Positions 5,720 through 21,064 of a stretch of DNA of 33,660 bases are shown in pieces. This DNA comes from Flavobacteriales bacterium. Lineage in GTDB: Bacteria; Bacteroidota; Bacteroidia; Flavobacteriales; UBA7430. How positions within the stretch are numbered: position 1 is the stretch's first letter; each line of letters starts with the position of its first letter. Under the pieces are notes generated by a model. That model was not told where the DNA came from. It saw only the letters and a list, made by a program, of their open reading frames with translations, and did not search any database. Where the stretch lies: contig JAQWKY010000095.1 in the NCBI GenBank assembly GCA_029247585.1, forward strand, positions 1-33,660. The letters are read 5' to 3'. The position numbers and the translations under genes are program-made.

Positions 5720-7903
5720 ATGTTAAAGAAATTTTTAGTTGTTGCCCTAGCTATTTTTATGGCAATCCCTACGATTGTTAAAGCGGATGAGGGCATGTGG
5801 TTGCCCATGTTCATCAAGCGGTTGAATGAAGTAGATATGCAAGCAGCAGGCCTACAATTAACCGCAGAGGAGTTGTACAGCATCAATCAATCGAGTTTAA
5901 AAGATGCTATAGCAGTATTTGGTGGTTTTTGTACTGCAGAAGTGATTTCTGCAGAAGGCTTATTATTGACAAATCACCACTGTGCTTACGACGCGATTCA
6001 AAGTCACTCGTCCCTAGAAAATGATTATTTAACCGATGGTTTTTGGGCTATGAATCGAACTGATGAATTGGCGAACCCAGATTTGTATGTCGATTTTTTA
6101 ATCCGCATGGAGGATGTGACCGATAGAGTATTGAAAGAAGTCAGTGACGAATTGTCTGAGGCAGACAGAAAAAAAGCCATTCAAGAAGCTATAAATTCCA
6201 TAAAGAATGAGGCTGGCGAAGAGAACGATTACATCGTACAAGTCAAATCCTTTTATGAGGGGAATGAGTTTTACATGTTCCTTTATGAACGATTTCAAGA
6301 CATACGATTGGTGGGTGCGCCACCATCCTCTGTTGGGAAATATGGGGGAGACACAGACAACTGGATGTGGCCGCGTCATACAGGTGATTTTTCCATGTTT
6401 CGTATCTACTGTGCTCCCGATGGAACGCCTGCCACTTACACAGAAGAAAACGTTCCTCTAACGAAAGAGCTGAGAGAGAAAAACAATGCCTTTTACCACC
6501 ATTTACCCATTTCTTTAGAAGGGGTATCAAACGAAGACTTCACCATGGTGTGGGGCTATCCGGGTTCTACCGACCGCTACCTGACCTCATGGGGGGTTCG
6601 GCAACTGTTAGACATCAAAGCACCTACCATTGTGGACATCCGTGATTTGAAGTTAAACATCATGAAAAAACATATGGATGCCAATCCGAAAGTCCGCATA
6701 CAATATGCATCCAAACACGCTCGAACGGCAAACTATTGGAAATACTTTATCGGACAGTCTAAAGGACTCAAGCGTTTAGGAGTTTATGAGAAAAAACAGG
6801 ATATAGAGGCTGAATTTGAGGTTTTCGCAAATACTTCTGAGGAACATCAATCAAAATACGGTGAGGCACTAGGTCTTATTGAAGAGGCTTATTCTGAGAC
6901 TAATGAAACAGAAAAGGGAGCAACATTCCTTTCTGAGGTAGGGGTAAGAGGTACTGATGTGGTGTTGTTTACCTATCGAGCCAATCACATGATTACAAAG
7001 CTCATGGGCACGGAAGATGCTGAGGCAAAATTGGCACTATTGGATGAGCTAAAAAGTTTTGCAGAAGCGCATTTTAAGAACTACAATGCTGCCTTAGACG
7101 AAGAACAGTTTGCTCGACTGTTTGCCAAATATCAGGCAGAAGTTACCCCGGCACAACACCCTAGTTTCTTTGCCTATGTTGATAAAAAGTTCAAGGGTGA
7201 TTTTCAAAAGTATGCGGCTAAAATGTATGCCAAATCGTTCTTTACCGATGAGGATCGCTTCAATGCATTTATAACTTCTCCTAATGCAAAGAAATTAGCA
7301 AAATACTTGGCTTATATTGCATCTAATTCAGTGATTCAAAGTTATTTTGGTTTGGGATCTTTAAACGCTGAGGCCACCGAGAAGTTGGCTACAGGGAATC
7401 GACTTTTTGTAGATGGTTTACGAAAGATGAATCCAGAAAAGACCTATTATCCGAACGCTAATTTTTCCATGAGAACCACTTACGGTACGGTAGGTGATTA
7501 TATTCCAGCTGACGCCGTACATTACGACTACGAGACGACTTTGGACGGTCTCATGGAGAAATTTGTACCTGGAGACCATGAGTTTGATTTACCCGAAAGA
7601 TTGATCGATTTACACAAGGCACAAGATTATGGCCCTTATGCGGATGAAAATGGGGATTTGATTGTCAATTTCATTCACAACACCGACATTACGGGAGGGA
7701 ACTCTGGATCGCCTGTAATCAATGCAAAAGGACATCTTATAGGAACGGCTTTTGACGGTAATTGGGAGGCCATGAGTGGCGATATTGCCTTTGAATCTGA
7801 ACTGCAAAGAACCATCTCCTGCGATATACGTTATGTGTTATTTATCGTTGATAAATATGCCGGTGCTACCCATCTGATCGAAGAAATGGATCTGGTGTAT
7901 TGA
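5720..7903 (+). CDS. S46 family dipeptidyl peptidase (DPP7-like)
   Basis: This 727-residue protein has a clear signal peptide (MLKKFLVVALAIFMAIPTIVKA) and should be periplasmic. It is the usual length for S46 enzymes. These are chymotrypsin-fold serine peptidases that remove dipeptides from the free N-terminus of oligopeptides, feeding amino acids to the cell. The catalytic blocks are visible: TNHHCAYDAI (His86/87), NWMWPRHTGDF (Asp223) and GGNSGSPV (Ser662). Eighteen residues after the catalytic Ser the sequence is FDGNWE, with Gly680. In the family, Gly at this place goes with DPP7 (hydrophobic P1) and Arg with DPP11 (Asp/Glu P1), so a DPP7-like preference is expected. It converges on the glutaminyl cyclase-like gene over a shared terminator. 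Confidence 0.93.
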   Translation: MLKKFLVVALAIFMAIPTIVKADEGMWLPMFIKRLNEVDMQAAGLQLTAEELYSINQSSLKDAIAVFGGFCTAEVISAEGLLLTNHHCAYDAIQSHSSLENDYLTDGFWAMNRTDELANPDLYVDFLIRMEDVTDRVLKEVSDELSEADRKKAIQEAINSIKNEAGEENDYIVQVKSFYEGNEFYMFLYERFQDIRLVGAPPSSVGKYGGDTDNWMWPRHTGDFSMFRIYCAPDGTPATYTEENVPLTKELREKNNAFYHHLPISLEGVSNEDFTMVWGYPGSTDRYLTSWGVRQLLDIKAPTIVDIRDLKLNIMKKHMDANPKVRIQYASKHARTANYWKYFIGQSKGLKRLGVYEKKQDIEAEFEVFANTSEEHQSKYGEALGLIEEAYSETNETEKGATFLSEVGVRGTDVVLFTYRANHMITKLMGTEDAEAKLALLDELKSFAEAHFKNYNAALDEEQFARLFAKYQAEVTPAQHPSFFAYVDKKFKGDFQKYAAKMYAKSFFTDEDRFNAFITSPNAKKLAKYLAYIASNSVIQSYFGLGSLNAEATEKLATGNRLFVDGLRKMNPEKTYYPNANFSMRTTYGTVGDYIPADAVHYDYETTLDGLMEKFVPGDHEFDLPERLIDLHKAQDYGPYADENGDLIVNFIHNTDITGGNSGSPVINAKGHLIGTAFDGNWEAMSGDIAFESELQRTISCDIRYVLFIVDKYAGATHLIEEMDLVY

Positions 7904-14957: not shown

Positions 14958-16307
14958 CTAAAGATCCAAAAACAGTTTACCAATCATGAAGTAGATAAAT
15001 AGGCCTAAGACGTCGTTTACGGTTGTGATAAAAGGCCCAGTAGCTAATGCGGGGTCAATTTTATATCTGTCTAAAATCAGGGGAACAAAGGTTCCAAAGA
15101 GTGCCGCGAAAATAATGACGGCCATCAAAGAGATGCTTACTGTAAACGAAATAGAGCTTGGATAACCGATGAGGAATGTGATGAGCATGATAAGCCCGGA
15201 ACAGATGAGCCCATTCAAAAGAGCCACCCCCAATTCTTTCAATAATCGTTGGCTGATGGTGTCCATACCCAAACTATTACTCGCCAAACCTTGAACGATG
15301 ATGGCGGCAGATTGCACACCAACATTACCGCCCATAGCTGCGATTAAAGGAATGAAGAAGGCCAATTCAATGTGACTTTCGATGTCAAAAATACCCATCA
15401 CCTGAGCACCTAAAATACCACCTACAAGGCCGATGAGCAACCAAGGTAATCGAGCTCGAGTGAGTGTAGCAATATTATCCGATGAATCTACTTGTTCACT
15501 AATCCCAGAAGCTTTATTGTAATCTTCCATAGCTTCCTCTTTCATCACATCCACCACGTCGTCAATGGTAATTCTTCCGATGAGTCGATTTAGGTCATCG
15601 ACTACAGGAAGTACGACCAGATCGTATTTGTCCATGATGTTGGCAACCACCTCATCGTCGTAATTGGCTTTTACAGAGATCACTTTTTCATTATAAACCT
15701 TCTTGATGAGGTTTTTTTCTGGAGTCAAGAGTAATTTCTTGAGTGATAAGGTTCCGAGTAAAACATCATGGTCATCCACGACATAAATGGCGTAAACCTT
15801 ATCTACTTCCTCAGCTTGTTTTCGCATTTCACGGACGCATCGTAAAACCGACCATTTTTCATTCACTCTAATTAACTCTTTAGCCATTAAACCTCCAGCG
15901 GTGTTCTCAGGATAGGCCAAAAGATCGACAATGTCACTTGCATGATCGATGTCTTCGATGTGTGAAAGGACTTCTACTTTTTTCTGAGAGGGTAAGTCGG
16001 CAATGATATCAGCAGCATCGTCTGAATCTAAATTTTCGATGAGGTCTTCTGCAATCTCTTGAGAGGATAGGTCTTCTAAGACCGTCTCACGACTTTCTTC
16101 ATCGAGTTCAATAAGGATTTCTGCAGAGTCTTCGTCTTCAAAAAGTTCAAATAAAATCTTTCCGTAGTCATCATCGAGTTCATCAATCAACTCAGCGATA
16201 TCTACATTGTGTAATTCTGACAGCTCCTTTTTTACCAGATTGTATTCTTGGCGGTCGAGCTTTTCTGTGATTTCACGGAGAAATTCTTTGGTTAAATCAA
16301 ACTTCAT
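14958..16307 (-). CDS. mgtE: Magnesium transporter MgtE
   Basis: The 449-residue protein has the standard MgtE layout. An acidic, Leu-rich N-terminal superhelical domain runs to about residue 130 (ELIDELDDDYGKILFELFEDED and repeats). Two CBS domains (about 135-260) follow, holding PENTAGGLMAKE and YDLVVLPVVDD. Then comes a five-helix membrane domain (about 285-449) with the pore-lining GGNVGVQSAAIIVQGLA segment and LATGPFITTVNDVLG. It imports Mg2+ through the inner membrane; the acidic cytosolic part senses Mg2+ and closes the channel. Its ATG overlaps the rsmA stop by four bases (ATGA), so translation is probably coupled. Confidence 0.96.
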   Translation of the reverse strand: MKFDLTKEFLREITEKLDRQEYNLVKKELSELHNVDIAELIDELDDDYGKILFELFEDEDSAEILIELDEESRETVLEDLSSQEIAEDLIENLDSDDAADIIADLPSQKKVEVLSHIEDIDHASDIVDLLAYPENTAGGLMAKELIRVNEKWSVLRCVREMRKQAEEVDKVYAIYVVDDHDVLLGTLSLKKLLLTPEKNLIKKVYNEKVISVKANYDDEVVANIMDKYDLVVLPVVDDLNRLIGRITIDDVVDVMKEEAMEDYNKASGISEQVDSSDNIATLTRARLPWLLIGLVGGILGAQVMGIFDIESHIELAFFIPLIAAMGGNVGVQSAAIIVQGLASNSLGMDTISQRLLKELGVALLNGLICSGLIMLITFLIGYPSSISFTVSISLMAVIIFAALFGTFVPLILDRYKIDPALATGPFITTVNDVLGLFIYFMIGKLFLDL

Positions 16308-17077
16308 GGCTGTATGCTTTCAAGCTGGTTGGTAAGGTACACAAAATCTTCAACTGATAATCGCTCAGCGCGAAGTGTGAGAAGCGGGTCCTCGAAACCA
16401 CTTTTTCCAATAAGGGGTTTAAGTGAGTTTCTGAGTGTTTTTCTCCGTTGACTGAAGGATTGTTTTACGACTTGTTTGAAGAACTTTTCGTTACAATCAA
16501 GTTTCTTTTTGTGGTTTCTCCTCAATCGAATGACACCTGATTTTACTTTTGGTGGAGGATCAAAGACGTCTTCATGAACGGTAAAAAGGTATTCAATGTC
16601 GTAATAGGCTTGTAGTAAAACGGAGATGATTCCGTATTTTTTGTTTCCAGGTCCACTGGCGACACGTTCTGCAACTTCTTTTTGGAACATACCTACTACT
16701 TCAGGAATTTGATCTTTGTAGTCTAGCGCCTTAAATAGAATTTGTGATGATATGTTGTAAGGGAAGTTCCCGATGAGTGCAAAACTTTCAGGGGTTACTT
16801 TTTTTAGGTCAAGGCGTAAAAAATCCGTGGCGTGTATTCTTGGGCTTAACTCTGGGTATTCCGCCTGGAGGTACAAAACGGATTCATGATCGAGTTCAAT
16901 AACGTGCGTTGTAAAGTCTTTGGGCAAAAGGAATTGGGTCAACACACCCATACCAGGGCCTACTTCGATTACATTTTCATAGCCCACACCACTTAGTCCA
17001 TCGGCAATAGCTCTGGCTATGGAAAGGTCTTTTAAAAAATGCTGACCCAGATGTTTTTTTGCTCGAACTTTTTTCAT
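16304..17077 (-). CDS. rsmA: 16S rRNA dimethyladenosine transferase
   Basis: The 257-residue protein starts MKKVRAKKHLGQHFLKD, the usual KsgA/RsmA opening. The SAM-binding motif is EVGPGMG (38-44) and the adenine-binding catalytic motif is NFPY (104-107). The C-terminal helical domain includes SFSQRRKTLRNSLKPL, which contacts 16S rRNA. The enzyme dimethylates two adjacent adenosines near the 3' end of 16S rRNA (A1518 and A1519 in E. coli numbering) late in 30S assembly. Its ATG follows the stop of the DUF4286 gene with no gap, and its own stop overlaps mgtE. Confidence 0.97.
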   Translation of the reverse strand: MKKVRAKKHLGQHFLKDLSIARAIADGLSGVGYENVIEVGPGMGVLTQFLLPKDFTTHVIELDHESVLYLQAEYPELSPRIHATDFLRLDLKKVTPESFALIGNFPYNISSQILFKALDYKDQIPEVVGMFQKEVAERVASGPGNKKYGIISVLLQAYYDIEYLFTVHEDVFDPPPKVKSGVIRLRRNHKKKLDCNEKFFKQVVKQSFSQRRKTLRNSLKPLIGKSGFEDPLLTLRAERLSVEDFVYLTNQLESIQP

Positions 17078-17389
17078 TTAAAACTCTTGTATTACTTCCA
17101 ATAAGGTTCGAAATGCAACAAATTTCCCCCGATACTTTTTTTCGTATTCACTTTTTAATTCTGGGGCAAACTTTTCTTGATATTCATCCAGTTTCGCTTT
17201 GCTTTCACAAGTGTATTGCACGGAATAAGTGCTGCCTCCCATTTCTTCTTTAACCAATACTTTGGTCATTTTTGCAGAAACAAACATATGGGTTTTCATC
17301 ACCTCAGGAATGTGTGTTTCTTTCATCCAATTCAGCCATTCTTGCTCAATAGACTCATCGATGTTTGACGTAACGTTGTAGATAATCAT
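17078..17389 (-). CDS. DUF4286 family protein
   Basis: A 103-residue cytoplasmic protein with the family's opening MIIYNVTSNID, the WLNWMKETHIPEVM block and the SVQYTCESKAKLDEYQ block. The pattern of strands and helices suggests a ferredoxin-like alpha/beta dimer of the kind seen in stress-responsive barrel proteins. No catalytic residues are evident and the function is unknown. It is wedged between the TPR protein (2 bases upstream) and rsmA (no gap downstream). A link with ribosome maturation or the envelope would rest on position only. Confidence 0.8.
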   Translation of the reverse strand: MIIYNVTSNIDESIEQEWLNWMKETHIPEVMKTHMFVSAKMTKVLVKEEMGGSTYSVQYTCESKAKLDEYQEKFAPELKSEYEKKYRGKFVAFRTLLEVIQEF

Positions 17390-17391
17390 AG

Positions 17392-19209
17392 TTATTCTCC
17401 TCTTAAAATTCGATAGCGTTTTCGGGATTCTGATACGTAAAAACTATCTGGGTGCTTGCTTATAATTTCTTGATACAGATTAGAAGCTTGTTCTTTATTT
17501 TCAAAATAGTTTTCTTGCAACTGAGCTTGGGCAAATTTAGCGTCATCTGCTAAAATATCGAAGGAATAGAAGGTAATTATCTGATCTAATAACTCACTTG
17601 CATCTTCAAGCTTTCCTTGTTTTATTTTGATTTCGTATTGTCGAAATAAAGCTTCATCGACTAGGCTGTGTCCTTGGTAATCAATCACAATGGTGTCTAG
17701 TGTGTTGTATGCTTCATTGAGTTTGTTCTGGTAAATTAATAGGTCCGCTCTTGAGAAAATTTCCATAGTCGTGGTGGTGGTATCTAAATTCAGGTTGTCT
17801 TGAATTAAAAGTGACAACTCCATCGCATTATTGGCGATTAACTTAGCGGTTGATTTTTTGAGAACGTCTAATTGAGCTTGCGCCCAATCAAAATCACCTT
17901 GGAAGTATGAAATTTTCGCCCTTCGGTATTTTGCCTCGTGTCCTAGGACGTCATTTTTGTAGGCTTTAACGACTTGGGAATAAGATAGGATTGCCTCCCA
18001 TATTTCATTTTTCAGCAACTGAATGTCTGCCTGAAGTAGTTTGCATTCAGCCAGATCTTCCGCGCGTGCCGCTGAGATTGTTTGAATATCTTCTATGGTG
18101 TTTGAAGCTTGTTCTATGTTGTGTAGTCTGAATGCTTGAATCTCTGCCAAATCTCGAATAAGAAGAAGTGTCTGACTGGTTTTCCCGATTTCATTCAACA
18201 GTTCGACGTAGTTTTTCTCTAAGTCTAGCCAAGCCTCTTGCGTAACAGCTACAGAGTTTTCTAACAGGTCTTTTTTGACAGTAATGGCTGCCAATTGAGC
18301 ATCTAGATAGTAGACGGAGTTCGGACCTATTTTTATAATGTGTTCATAGCAATCGATAGCGACTTCAAAGGCCTTATTTTTTCTGCAGATTGAAGCTAAT
18401 TCAAAGATTTTCTTTTGGTCGAGTTTGAATCTTTGATCGATTGATTTTTCTTGGTCAAAGGCAGCCTCAAAGTTTTTTTCTTGAATAAATAGCCAAATCA
18501 GTAATTCACCCACACTTGCTTCGTTGGACTTTTGTACTCTTTGAATAAGAATCTCTTTTAAAAGCTGATTGTTGTCGTTTTCAGGATCCTTACTAATGGT
18601 TCTACCGATAATGTTTTTTACGTTTTGAAGGTACGCTTTGTTATTGATGACGAGGTCAAGATACGTTTCGTACATCATTTGAAGGTCATTCAGTTGTCCG
18701 TAAATGCGCGCTAAGGAGAACCTATATGTATTTTTTGAAGGGTTCTGTAGGCCTATTTCATAGGCTTTGATGGCATGTTCTAAATAGCCATACTTGGTAA
18801 ATTTTTTAGCTACAACACCCACATATTGATCCTTTAATTTTAGCCTCTCAAAGACTTCATCGAATTTTTTCTTTGCTTTTTTTTCCTCTTCAAGGACTGA
18901 GAAAAGATGGGCAAAATCGATCTGTACGGTAATATTGTTTGTGTATTTTTTACTGTGTTTTTTTATCAATTTTTCGGCTGCCTTCATTTCATCAAGGGCA
19001 AAGTAGCAGTCGAGTAATTTATGGTAATAATTAGCCGATTTATATTTGTTGTAAAGTTTGTTATAGATTTGGCTAGACTTCAGATAATCCCCAGAACTGA
19101 ACAATTGATTTGCTAATTGGACATCGGTACTTGTTTGTCCAATCAGGGTTGTCGAGATGCTAACGCATACGATGATGAGGAGGAATTTATTTTTTAGCAG
19201 ATTCTTCAT
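17392..19209 (-). CDS. Exported tetratricopeptide-repeat protein
   Basis: The 605-residue protein begins with a signal peptide (MKNLLKNKFLLIIVCVSISTTLIGQ) and then consists almost wholly of paired helices with TPR spacing. Examples are ANQLFSSGDYLKSSQIYNKL, the segment around AIKAYEIGLQNPS, and YRRAKISYFQGDFDWAQAQL. The last repeats (ADLLIYQNKLNEAYNTL onward) resemble the BamD/YbgF/CpoB type of envelope TPR. It should lie in the periplasm and act as a scaffold. Its first 23 bases overlap the end of the lipoprotein gene, so the two are probably translated together and may work as partners. I know no assigned function for this family. Confidence 0.8.
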   Translation of the reverse strand: MKNLLKNKFLLIIVCVSISTTLIGQTSTDVQLANQLFSSGDYLKSSQIYNKLYNKYKSANYYHKLLDCYFALDEMKAAEKLIKKHSKKYTNNITVQIDFAHLFSVLEEEKKAKKKFDEVFERLKLKDQYVGVVAKKFTKYGYLEHAIKAYEIGLQNPSKNTYRFSLARIYGQLNDLQMMYETYLDLVINNKAYLQNVKNIIGRTISKDPENDNNQLLKEILIQRVQKSNEASVGELLIWLFIQEKNFEAAFDQEKSIDQRFKLDQKKIFELASICRKNKAFEVAIDCYEHIIKIGPNSVYYLDAQLAAITVKKDLLENSVAVTQEAWLDLEKNYVELLNEIGKTSQTLLLIRDLAEIQAFRLHNIEQASNTIEDIQTISAARAEDLAECKLLQADIQLLKNEIWEAILSYSQVVKAYKNDVLGHEAKYRRAKISYFQGDFDWAQAQLDVLKKSTAKLIANNAMELSLLIQDNLNLDTTTTTMEIFSRADLLIYQNKLNEAYNTLDTIVIDYQGHSLVDEALFRQYEIKIKQGKLEDASELLDQIITFYSFDILADDAKFAQAQLQENYFENKEQASNLYQEIISKHPDSFYVSESRKRYRILRGE

Positions 19210-19759
19210 CGCGACTTTCTATAGCATCTAATTGTGTGAGAATACCTTGCAGTTTGAATTCTAACGAATCAAGTTTGTATAAGCATTTGGAGTACGTTTC
19301 GTTCAGATTATCGGATAGTGTCTTTAGTCCAGCAAGTGCTTTTTGCTCATCTGTGAAATATACTTTGAATTCTTTTTTATTGAGATGCCTGTGTAATAAG
19401 TCATCTTTTAAAGCCTGTATTTGGTGTTTGGAATATTCGTAAGCTTGATGAACAGAGTCTACTTTTTCACTGAAACTATTTAGGGATAAATAAATTTTTT
19501 CGTAAGCGACTTTGTCATGGTGCAACCATTGCTTTTGAAAACGATTCAGATTTTTACTTTCAAACAAATGCATTCTATGTTTTGCTTTTTGAACATAGGA
19601 ATCGACTTTGTTGTTGTCTATAGAGTCAATTTGAGCTTGTTGCAGAACAAGCATAGAATCGAGAAGATCTGTATTTCTTAATTCATTATTAATGTTAATT
19701 TCTCGGCATGAAGAAAGTAGAATTGTGATGACAGATATGTAAAAAATATATTTAATCAT
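19187..19759 (-). CDS. Coiled-coil lipoprotein of unknown function
   Basis: A 190-residue protein with a lipoprotein signal (MIKYIFYISVITILLSSC, Cys18). The mature part is highly charged and almost entirely helical, with heptad-like stretches (SMLVLQQAQIDSIDNNKV, QAYEYSKHQIQALKDDLL and the final KLDSLEFKLQGILTQLDAIE). It should be tethered to a membrane facing the periplasm. It starts 33 bases after serS ends and overlaps the TPR gene by 23 bases. The lipoprotein-plus-TPR pair inside a translation gene cluster suggests a shared envelope role. No domain is recognised. Confidence 0.7.
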   Translation of the reverse strand: MIKYIFYISVITILLSSCREININNELRNTDLLDSMLVLQQAQIDSIDNNKVDSYVQKAKHRMHLFESKNLNRFQKQWLHHDKVAYEKIYLSLNSFSEKVDSVHQAYEYSKHQIQALKDDLLHRHLNKKEFKVYFTDEQKALAGLKTLSDNLNETYSKCLYKLDSLEFKLQGILTQLDAIESRDEESAKK

Positions 19760-19792: not shown

Positions 19793-21064
19793 TTATTCGA
19801 TTTTATCGAAACCGCAATACGGAATTAGTACTTCAGGAATATGGATTCCATCTGCGCCTTGATAATTTTCAATGATGGCAGCTAAGACTCTAGGGAGCGC
19901 CAGAGAAGAACCATTTAAACTATGACAAAGTTTGGTTTTTTTGTCTTCGTCTCGGTAGCGTAATTTCAGCCTGTTGGTTTGATAGCTTTCAAAATTTGAA
20001 ACCGAACTTACTTCCAACCACTTCTCTTGTGCGGCAGAATAAACCTCGAAATCATATGTTAAAGAAGAGGTGAAACTTATATCCCCTCCACACAATTGTA
20101 GAATTCGGAAGGGCAGTTTGAGCTCACGTAAAATAGATGCAACGTGAGCGACCATTTCGTCCAGAGTTTTATAGGATTCATCCGGATGTTGAATTTGTAC
20201 AATTTCAATTTTATCAAATTGATGCAACCTATTTAAACCTCTAACATCTTTACCATAAGACCCAGCTTCTCTTCGAAAACAAGGAGTATAAGCAGTACAC
20301 TTTATTGGTAAATCTTCTTTTTTGAGGATTACATTTCTGAAGATGTTGGTAACAGGAACTTCAGCGGTAGGAATCAAATATAAGTTGTCTTCCGTAACGT
20401 GATACATTTGCCCTTCTTTGTCAGGTAATTGCCCGGTGCCGAAACCTGAAGCTTCGTTAACCATATGGGGCGGCATGACTTCTTCGTAGCCAGCGTCTAT
20501 ATTTTTGTCTAGGAAATAGTTGATTAAGGCACGCTGAAGTTTTGCTCCTTTCCCTCTGTATACTGGGAATCCAGCGCCTGTAATTTTTACTCCCAACTCA
20601 AAATCGATGATGTTCTTTTCAGCAACGAGCTCCCAATGAGGTTTTGCATGGTTACCTAAATCAGGAAATTCACCTTCTTGACTGATGACTTTGTTATCTT
20701 CGTCTGAGTTGCCTGCAGGAACAGAATCATGAGGAATGTTTGGAATTTGAACAAGTTTTTCATGCAGTGAGTCTTGAGTGTCGGATAGCAACTGATTCAG
20801 TTGTTTTGACTTTTCTTTTAACTCGGCAGTTAGTGCTTTTTTTGCATTAGCCTCTTCAGAATTTCCTGATTTGTATAACATCCCGATTTCTTTCGAAAGT
20901 TTGTTGGATTCTGCCAGGGTATCGTCATGCTCCGCTTGTGTTTGACGTCTTTTTTCGTCCAACAAAATGAGCTCTTCTATGATGCTCTTTGCATCGAAGT
21001 TTTTTACAGCCAATCTTGCAATGACGTCTTCTTTATGTTCTCTGAGGTAAGCAACTTGTAACAT
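19793..21064 (-). CDS. serS: Seryl-tRNA synthetase
   Basis: The 423-residue class II synthetase charges tRNA-Ser (and tRNA-Sec where present). An N-terminal antiparallel coiled coil (about 25-105, rich in Glu/Lys/Leu) grips the long variable arm. Motif 2 is visible as CFRREAGSYGKDVRGLNRLHQF, and motif 3 as LNGSSLALPRVLAAIIENYQ. The IPTAEVPVTN segment belongs to the serine pocket. Its length is normal. A -7 element lies 19 bases upstream, so it appears to head the minus-strand cluster running towards mgtE. Confidence 0.97.
   Translation of the reverse strand: MLQVAYLREHKEDVIARLAVKNFDAKSIIEELILLDEKRRQTQAEHDDTLAESNKLSKEIGMLYKSGNSEEANAKKALTAELKEKSKQLNQLLSDTQDSLHEKLVQIPNIPHDSVPAGNSDEDNKVISQEGEFPDLGNHAKPHWELVAEKNIIDFELGVKITGAGFPVYRGKGAKLQRALINYFLDKNIDAGYEEVMPPHMVNEASGFGTGQLPDKEGQMYHVTEDNLYLIPTAEVPVTNIFRNVILKKEDLPIKCTAYTPCFRREAGSYGKDVRGLNRLHQFDKIEIVQIQHPDESYKTLDEMVAHVASILRELKLPFRILQLCGGDISFTSSLTYDFEVYSAAQEKWLEVSSVSNFESYQTNRLKLRYRDEDKKTKLCHSLNGSSLALPRVLAAIIENYQGADGIHIPEVLIPYCGFDKIE

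Follow-up and report, generated by a model that had tools for sequence, protein, structure and literature searches.

The window, by which we mean the whole 33,660-nucleotide stretch of Flavobacteriales DNA that was analysed, carries on its minus strand a tight run of genes in the order serS, lipoprotein, TPR protein, DUF4286, rsmA and mgtE. The TPR protein gene (17392..19209, minus strand) is an open reading frame of 605 amino acids whose product, based on generic TPR models and an AF2 model, is predicted to be an exported TPR solenoid. Its partner gene (19187..19759, minus strand) encodes a small lipoprotein of 190 amino acids, recognised from the reading frame and its lipobox and predicted by AF2 to be helical, and the two reading frames share 23 nt (19187..19209, minus strand). 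Upstream lies serS (19793..21064, minus strand; TIGR00414, 447.8 bits, cut-off 301.65), while downstream on the same strand are the DUF4286 gene (17078..17389; PF14114, 135.1 bits, over the Pfam cut-off), rsmA, also called ksgA (16304..17077; TIGR00755, 239.2 bits, cut-off 171), and mgtE (14958..16307; TIGR00400, 336.1 bits, cut-off 232.75). Open reading frame coordinates and family models bore out the first-pass annotation of this locus with respect to both reading frames, their overlap and their place between serS and DUF4286-rsmA-mgtE.

The gaps along the run are 33 nt between serS and the lipoprotein gene, -23 nt between the lipoprotein and TPR genes, 2 nt from there to DUF4286, 0 nt between DUF4286 and rsmA, -4 nt between rsmA and mgtE and 52 nt from mgtE to the next gene. 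Since the rsmA and mgtE reading frames overlap too, the overlap of the lipoprotein and TPR genes is not special. Spacing between the two genes ranged from -67 to +109 nt in 57 distinct pairs collected from other genomes, although start codons for this set were assigned by script and the extreme values may represent mis-called starts; 29 of the 57 overlapped and an overlap of exactly 23 nt was common to five. In loci lacking the lipoprotein gene, 18 of the 40 serS-TPR gaps listed measured between -4 and +1 nt. Close packing is a general habit of the serS-rsmA operon which permits translational coupling and does not establish a fixed ratio. The fixed ratio which had been read from the overlap was therefore not upheld, because spacing varies from pair to pair and tight packing extends through the operon. 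A Bacteroidota-type promoter pattern was not found near the pair, and the single match on the whole minus strand was at 7234, with 0.68 matches expected from shuffled sequences.

Sequence and predicted structure of the two proteins

The TPR protein exceeded Pfam cut-offs for generic models alone (TPR_14, 34.5 bits, cut-off 23.5; TPR_19, 30.5 bits, cut-off 25), and these profile matches together with an all-helical model place it within the TPR superfamily fold. Neither this protein nor the lipoprotein matched a specific curated family over cut-off in Pfam or NCBIfam, in agreement with the earlier description of both as uncharacterised, and the lipoprotein family has no name in PADLOC either. 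A defence system was also considered for the locus and was rejected as there was no PADLOC match.

Residues 1-24 of the TPR protein (19138..19209, minus strand) form a signal peptide followed by Gln25, which was invariant in 22 of 22 members; the exact cleavage position is a prediction. The looser pattern of a small residue plus Gln was present in 119 of 120 class-level members. The N-terminus of the TPR protein has no lipobox ([GAS]C) and carries instead a signal-peptidase-I pattern with Gln25. This pattern agrees with the Q-rule described for signal peptidase I in Bacteroidetes (PMC5837995). Export signals were present in each of the two proteins, and the proposal that both are exported stands.

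An AF2 model of the TPR protein made with eight sequences was an all-helical solenoid (mean pLDDT 89.7, pTM 0.72). Comparison of the model with the PDB by Foldseek returned generic TPR superhelices alone (best E 3.1e-10, TM-score by query 0.35) and the BFVD matches were generic repeats. The best VIA-align match had a Z of 14.3, with the best 50 rows listed falling between Z 12.0 and 14.3, a range which the tool deems common for repeats; within this crowd were PpiD-YfgM (8zht, Z 13.7 over 146 residues at 395-605) and BamA-BamD (5efr, Z 13.2). Block conservation was highest at residues 396-500 (17710..18024, minus strand), and this stretch remained the most conserved whether the lipoprotein was present or absent in the lineage. 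Members from other classes retained a core at approximately residues 410-495 with an ANDAL-like motif, visible in most of those aligned, while the remainder was much diverged. The C-terminal repeats, residues 484-597 (17419..17760, minus strand), are weakly similar to YbgF/CpoB TPRs (TIGR02795, 37.5 bits, cut-off 90.1). When conservation was contrasted between lineages with and without the lipoprotein, the top window was residues 186-200 (18610..18654, minus strand), a candidate lipoprotein-linked surface which is offered as a lead; the contrast did not reveal a significant lipoprotein-specific face, as 33 of 252 relabellings reached the value of this stretch.

The lipoprotein has a lipobox (..LLSSC) in which Cys18, the cysteine that follows a short hydrophobic signal as in bacterial lipoproteins, was invariant in 31 of 31 aligned relatives. 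In the same 31-row alignment Glu138 was invariant and Gln113 and Leu117 were nearly so. Most members are only 12-20% identical to the window protein and their scattered Pfam matches were coiled-coil-type noise; judged from the alignment, the family is real but fast-evolving. The AF2 model was helical and hairpin-like, at low confidence (pLDDT 66.9). Surface-exposed lipoproteins of Bacteroidota carry an acidic/lysine export signal right after the cysteine. Inspection by eye found no such run after Cys18 in the window lipoprotein, while several relatives were unreadable in this respect as the script had taken an earlier cysteine.

Distribution and co-conservation of the pair

With a 22-row profile at E<=1e-20 the TPR family was found in 84 of 156 genomes of the order, 183 of 197 genomes of the class and 101 of 148 genomes of the phylum. 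A single-sequence scan of 84,980 genomes, which detects close relatives only, returned 7 loci, all in Bacteroidota-titled records. The lipoprotein, searched with a 31-row profile at E<=1e-6, was found in 40 of the 156 order genomes, one of these (G047) being a spurious partial match with two stops, and in 78 of the 197 class genomes.

Both genes were present in 34 of the order genomes and were adjacent in all 34, from tables read by eye. Of the 80 lipoprotein matches examined across the class, 58 lay directly before the TPR gene and 19 were not adjacent, the remaining three coming from genomes without a TPR row among the matches listed. The order serS-lipoprotein-TPR-DUF4286-rsmA was seen in many class loci (e.g., L219, L224, L225, L227, L228, L233, L235 and L236), the pair also occurred without serS alongside (L137/L138), and in one genome (G430) it was present twice with serS beside neither copy. 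The lipoprotein was found in none of 14 TPR-less class genomes and in 76 of 183 TPR-bearing ones (Fisher p 0.001, uncorrected for kinship and after two doubtful lipoprotein matches were dropped). The arrangement is beyond chance, as both families recur in many genomes in the same order.

The partners are nevertheless separable. No lipoprotein was detectable in 50 of the 84 TPR-bearing order genomes, and Flavobacteriaceae-like genomes keep the TPR gene alone. The reverse was seen in one genus (g125), where five genomes have the lipoprotein and no TPR match at E<=1e-20, the loose matches reaching 1.5e-6 at best, and at four further loci (L202, L205, L209 and L210) the lipoprotein gene lies behind serS with the TPR gene elsewhere. 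On a 120-row TPR tree built by a fast method, adjacency was gained or lost in at least 6 changes. Co-conservation of the pair is strong, not obligate, because the TPR gene occurs alone in the Flavobacteriaceae-like genomes and the lipoprotein alone in one genus. The conservation originally proposed for the pair thus holds well beyond the genus, but the two genes are not locked together as had been claimed, given these separations and the variable spacing. The arrangement seems to be an old one within the class, and to have been lost or split several times.

A number of individual loci deserve description. At the one locus of genus g125 which was read (L136:1139-3284, genome G240), serS, the lipoprotein gene and DUF4286 are consecutive and the TPR gene is missing between the latter two. 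Another genome (G323), which is fragmented and possibly a mixed bin, has two TPR genes, one in the full serS-lipoprotein-TPR-DUF4286-rsmA-mgtE order and the other before DUF4286-rsmA without a lipoprotein (L219/L220). Genome G430, which may also be a mixed bin, carries its two pairs on different contigs; a third lipoprotein match there is weaker and lacks a TPR gene (L221-L223). In several families, many loci have the DUF4286 gene immediately after the TPR gene; it may be a more faithful neighbour than the lipoprotein, because it is kept there also where the lipoprotein is absent.

Outside the class, the lipoprotein was beside the TPR gene in none of 20 fetched loci (L089-L108). In 13 of these 20 loci an unclassified, exported-looking protein of approximately 418 amino acids was encoded near the TPR gene, which it follows; it had no Pfam match (one scanned) and no NCBIfam match (two scanned), and a search of the window's genome, run without a positive control, returned no match. 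Ten of the 20 loci contained genes which we take to be dxr-like and rseP-like. At a separate locus (L072, genome G117) the TPR gene comes after small genes which resemble gcvH, vanZ and tonB. A gcvH/vanZ/tonB-like group of small genes is often found behind sprA.

Possible role of the pair and rival explanations

The lipoprotein and TPR protein probably act together in the cell envelope, because their genes have stayed adjacent across much of a major bacterial group. The reading we favour, held tentatively and at slightly short of an even chance, is that the pair is an undescribed tethered scaffold or adaptor: a TPR scaffold in the periplasm which a small lipoprotein of its own anchors at the outer membrane, with the second half of the scaffold (residues 396-500) holding a client. 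The TPR protein would leave the cytoplasm through Sec, be cleaved ahead of Gln25 by signal peptidase I and form a predicted long TPR superhelix in the periplasm. The lipoprotein would be lipidated on Cys18 with its helical coiled region just beneath the outer membrane, a periplasm-facing location which we infer because there is no obvious surface-export signal. It could then dock the superhelix to the outer membrane while the conserved residues 396-500 bind a client, for which a cell-wall enzyme, a protease or an outer-membrane assembly factor are candidates. The lipoprotein probably serves as an accessory anchor and not as the core component, because lineages which have lost or moved it keep the same conserved client region. 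Counting against the pair model are that the two structures were predicted apart, that the lipoprotein model is weak and that 19 of the 80 class matches are non-adjacent.

It is also conceivable, if somewhat doubtful in our estimation, that two unrelated envelope genes are simply riding in an old and tightly packed translation-gene operon, and that their adjacency reflects conservation of the operon. Several orders share the complete arrangement from serS to rsmA, loci lacking the lipoprotein can have serS abutting the TPR gene, and genus g125 retains the lipoprotein without a TPR match; the loci where the lipoprotein stays with serS while the TPR gene is elsewhere could likewise be accounted for by a shared old operon without any partnership. 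This explanation is harder to reconcile with the persistence of the pair in places where serS is not alongside (L137/L138 and both copies in G430), and with the absence of the lipoprotein from 14 of 14 TPR-less class genomes. A more ambitious version of the partnership we regard as unlikely: here the pair would form the core of an envelope machine, so far undescribed, that predates the class Bacteroidia, and an invariant groove (residues 396-500) in the lipoprotein-tethered TPR superhelix would load a client onto the outer membrane at its inner face.

Two further explanations would assign the pair to a known system. It is improbable that the pair is an accessory, so far unrecognised, to the BAM or type 9 secretion machinery. 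Both machines commonly include lipoprotein and TPR parts, and the window TPR protein does have BamD-type TPR similarity (TIGR03302, 34 bits) and a weak PorW/SprE match (NF052312, 14.4 bits, E 0.011), the latter also obtained with 5 of 22 members (best E 1.1e-13), but these scores fall below the respective cut-offs of 81.4 and 250, and a six-frame search found a separate BamD in the same genome at 89.9 bits, over the cut-off, where the window TPR protein reached 27.7. The BAM complex purified from F. johnsoniae is reported to contain six named proteins (PMC12611786). BAM core subunits are universal in the phylum whereas the TPR family is absent from 14 of 197 class genomes, an argument from distribution. 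Less probable still is a diverged CpoB/YbgF split in two, with the lipoprotein as the coiled coil and the TPR protein as the TPR domain, which would coordinate the synthesis of the cell wall with constriction of the outer membrane. Each of the 22 TPR members scanned matched TIGR02795 in its C-terminal part (best E 7.5e-22) and the TPR profile matched 6g5s, a CpoB structure, over residues 482-594 (E 7.9e-11). Set against this, the window protein scored 31.5 bits with TIGR02795 when all six frames were searched, a score bettered by at least three other proteins encoded in its genome, none of 13 related genomes had a match over the cut-off, and consensus and OGT-type TPRs matched the TPR profile better than 6g5s. 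A CpoB/YbgF gene is typically found beside tol-pal genes, but no Tol-Pal genes are among the neighbours here (serS, the lipoprotein gene, DUF4286, rsmA and mgtE). Membership of both CpoB and BamD was rejected on the curated cut-offs and the better-scoring proteins in the same genome, and the resemblance of the TPR tail to CpoB/BamD-type scaffolds, suggested in the first-pass annotation, reduces to generic TPR similarity.

Returning to the tethered scaffold, no published description of the pair was recognised in a literature search which covers few preprints or subscription papers. Although the fold is known, family, partner and function are unnamed in the libraries used and the partnership itself is a proposal. 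The Bacteroidota envelope differs strongly from that of E. coli, and a TPR protein found across nearly the whole class without a specific family name represents a gap in its parts list. Cultured Flavobacteriales would allow a direct test of function, given the strong conservation of residues 396-500 and the natural lineages that either have or lack the lipoprotein.

Comparison with known envelope proteins

Among solved structures the best sequence-profile matches to the TPR protein were the consensus and OGT-type TPR superhelices (PDB 9qhb and 1w3b), which have the same repeat fold; the likeness is one of generic repeats, and neither partner nor compartment is shared. With CpoB/YbgF the window protein shares a similar C-terminal TPR profile and the character of an exported periplasmic protein, but it is predicted to be a TPR solenoid throughout, whereas CpoB/YbgF is a coiled coil plus a short TPR. 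BamD is likewise an envelope TPR protein, although, unlike BamD, the window TPR protein is not a lipoprotein. PG0449, which is listed as a 441-aa TPR protein (PMC1887533), differs in length from the window TPR protein, the two being compared by length alone.

The nearest working analogy for the pair may be offered by tethered TPR adaptors, of which LbcA, acting with CtpA, is one. Adaptors of the LbcA kind bind a carboxyl-terminal processing protease. As well as being a TPR protein, LbcA is itself the lipoprotein, whereas in the window pair anchor and scaffold would be two proteins, with no protease gene alongside. The Pseudomonas LbcA-CtpA system offers an adaptor tethered to the outer membrane (PMC12569750). 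LbcA is thus a one-protein adaptor, to which the pair, if read as an envelope machine, would be a two-protein counterpart.
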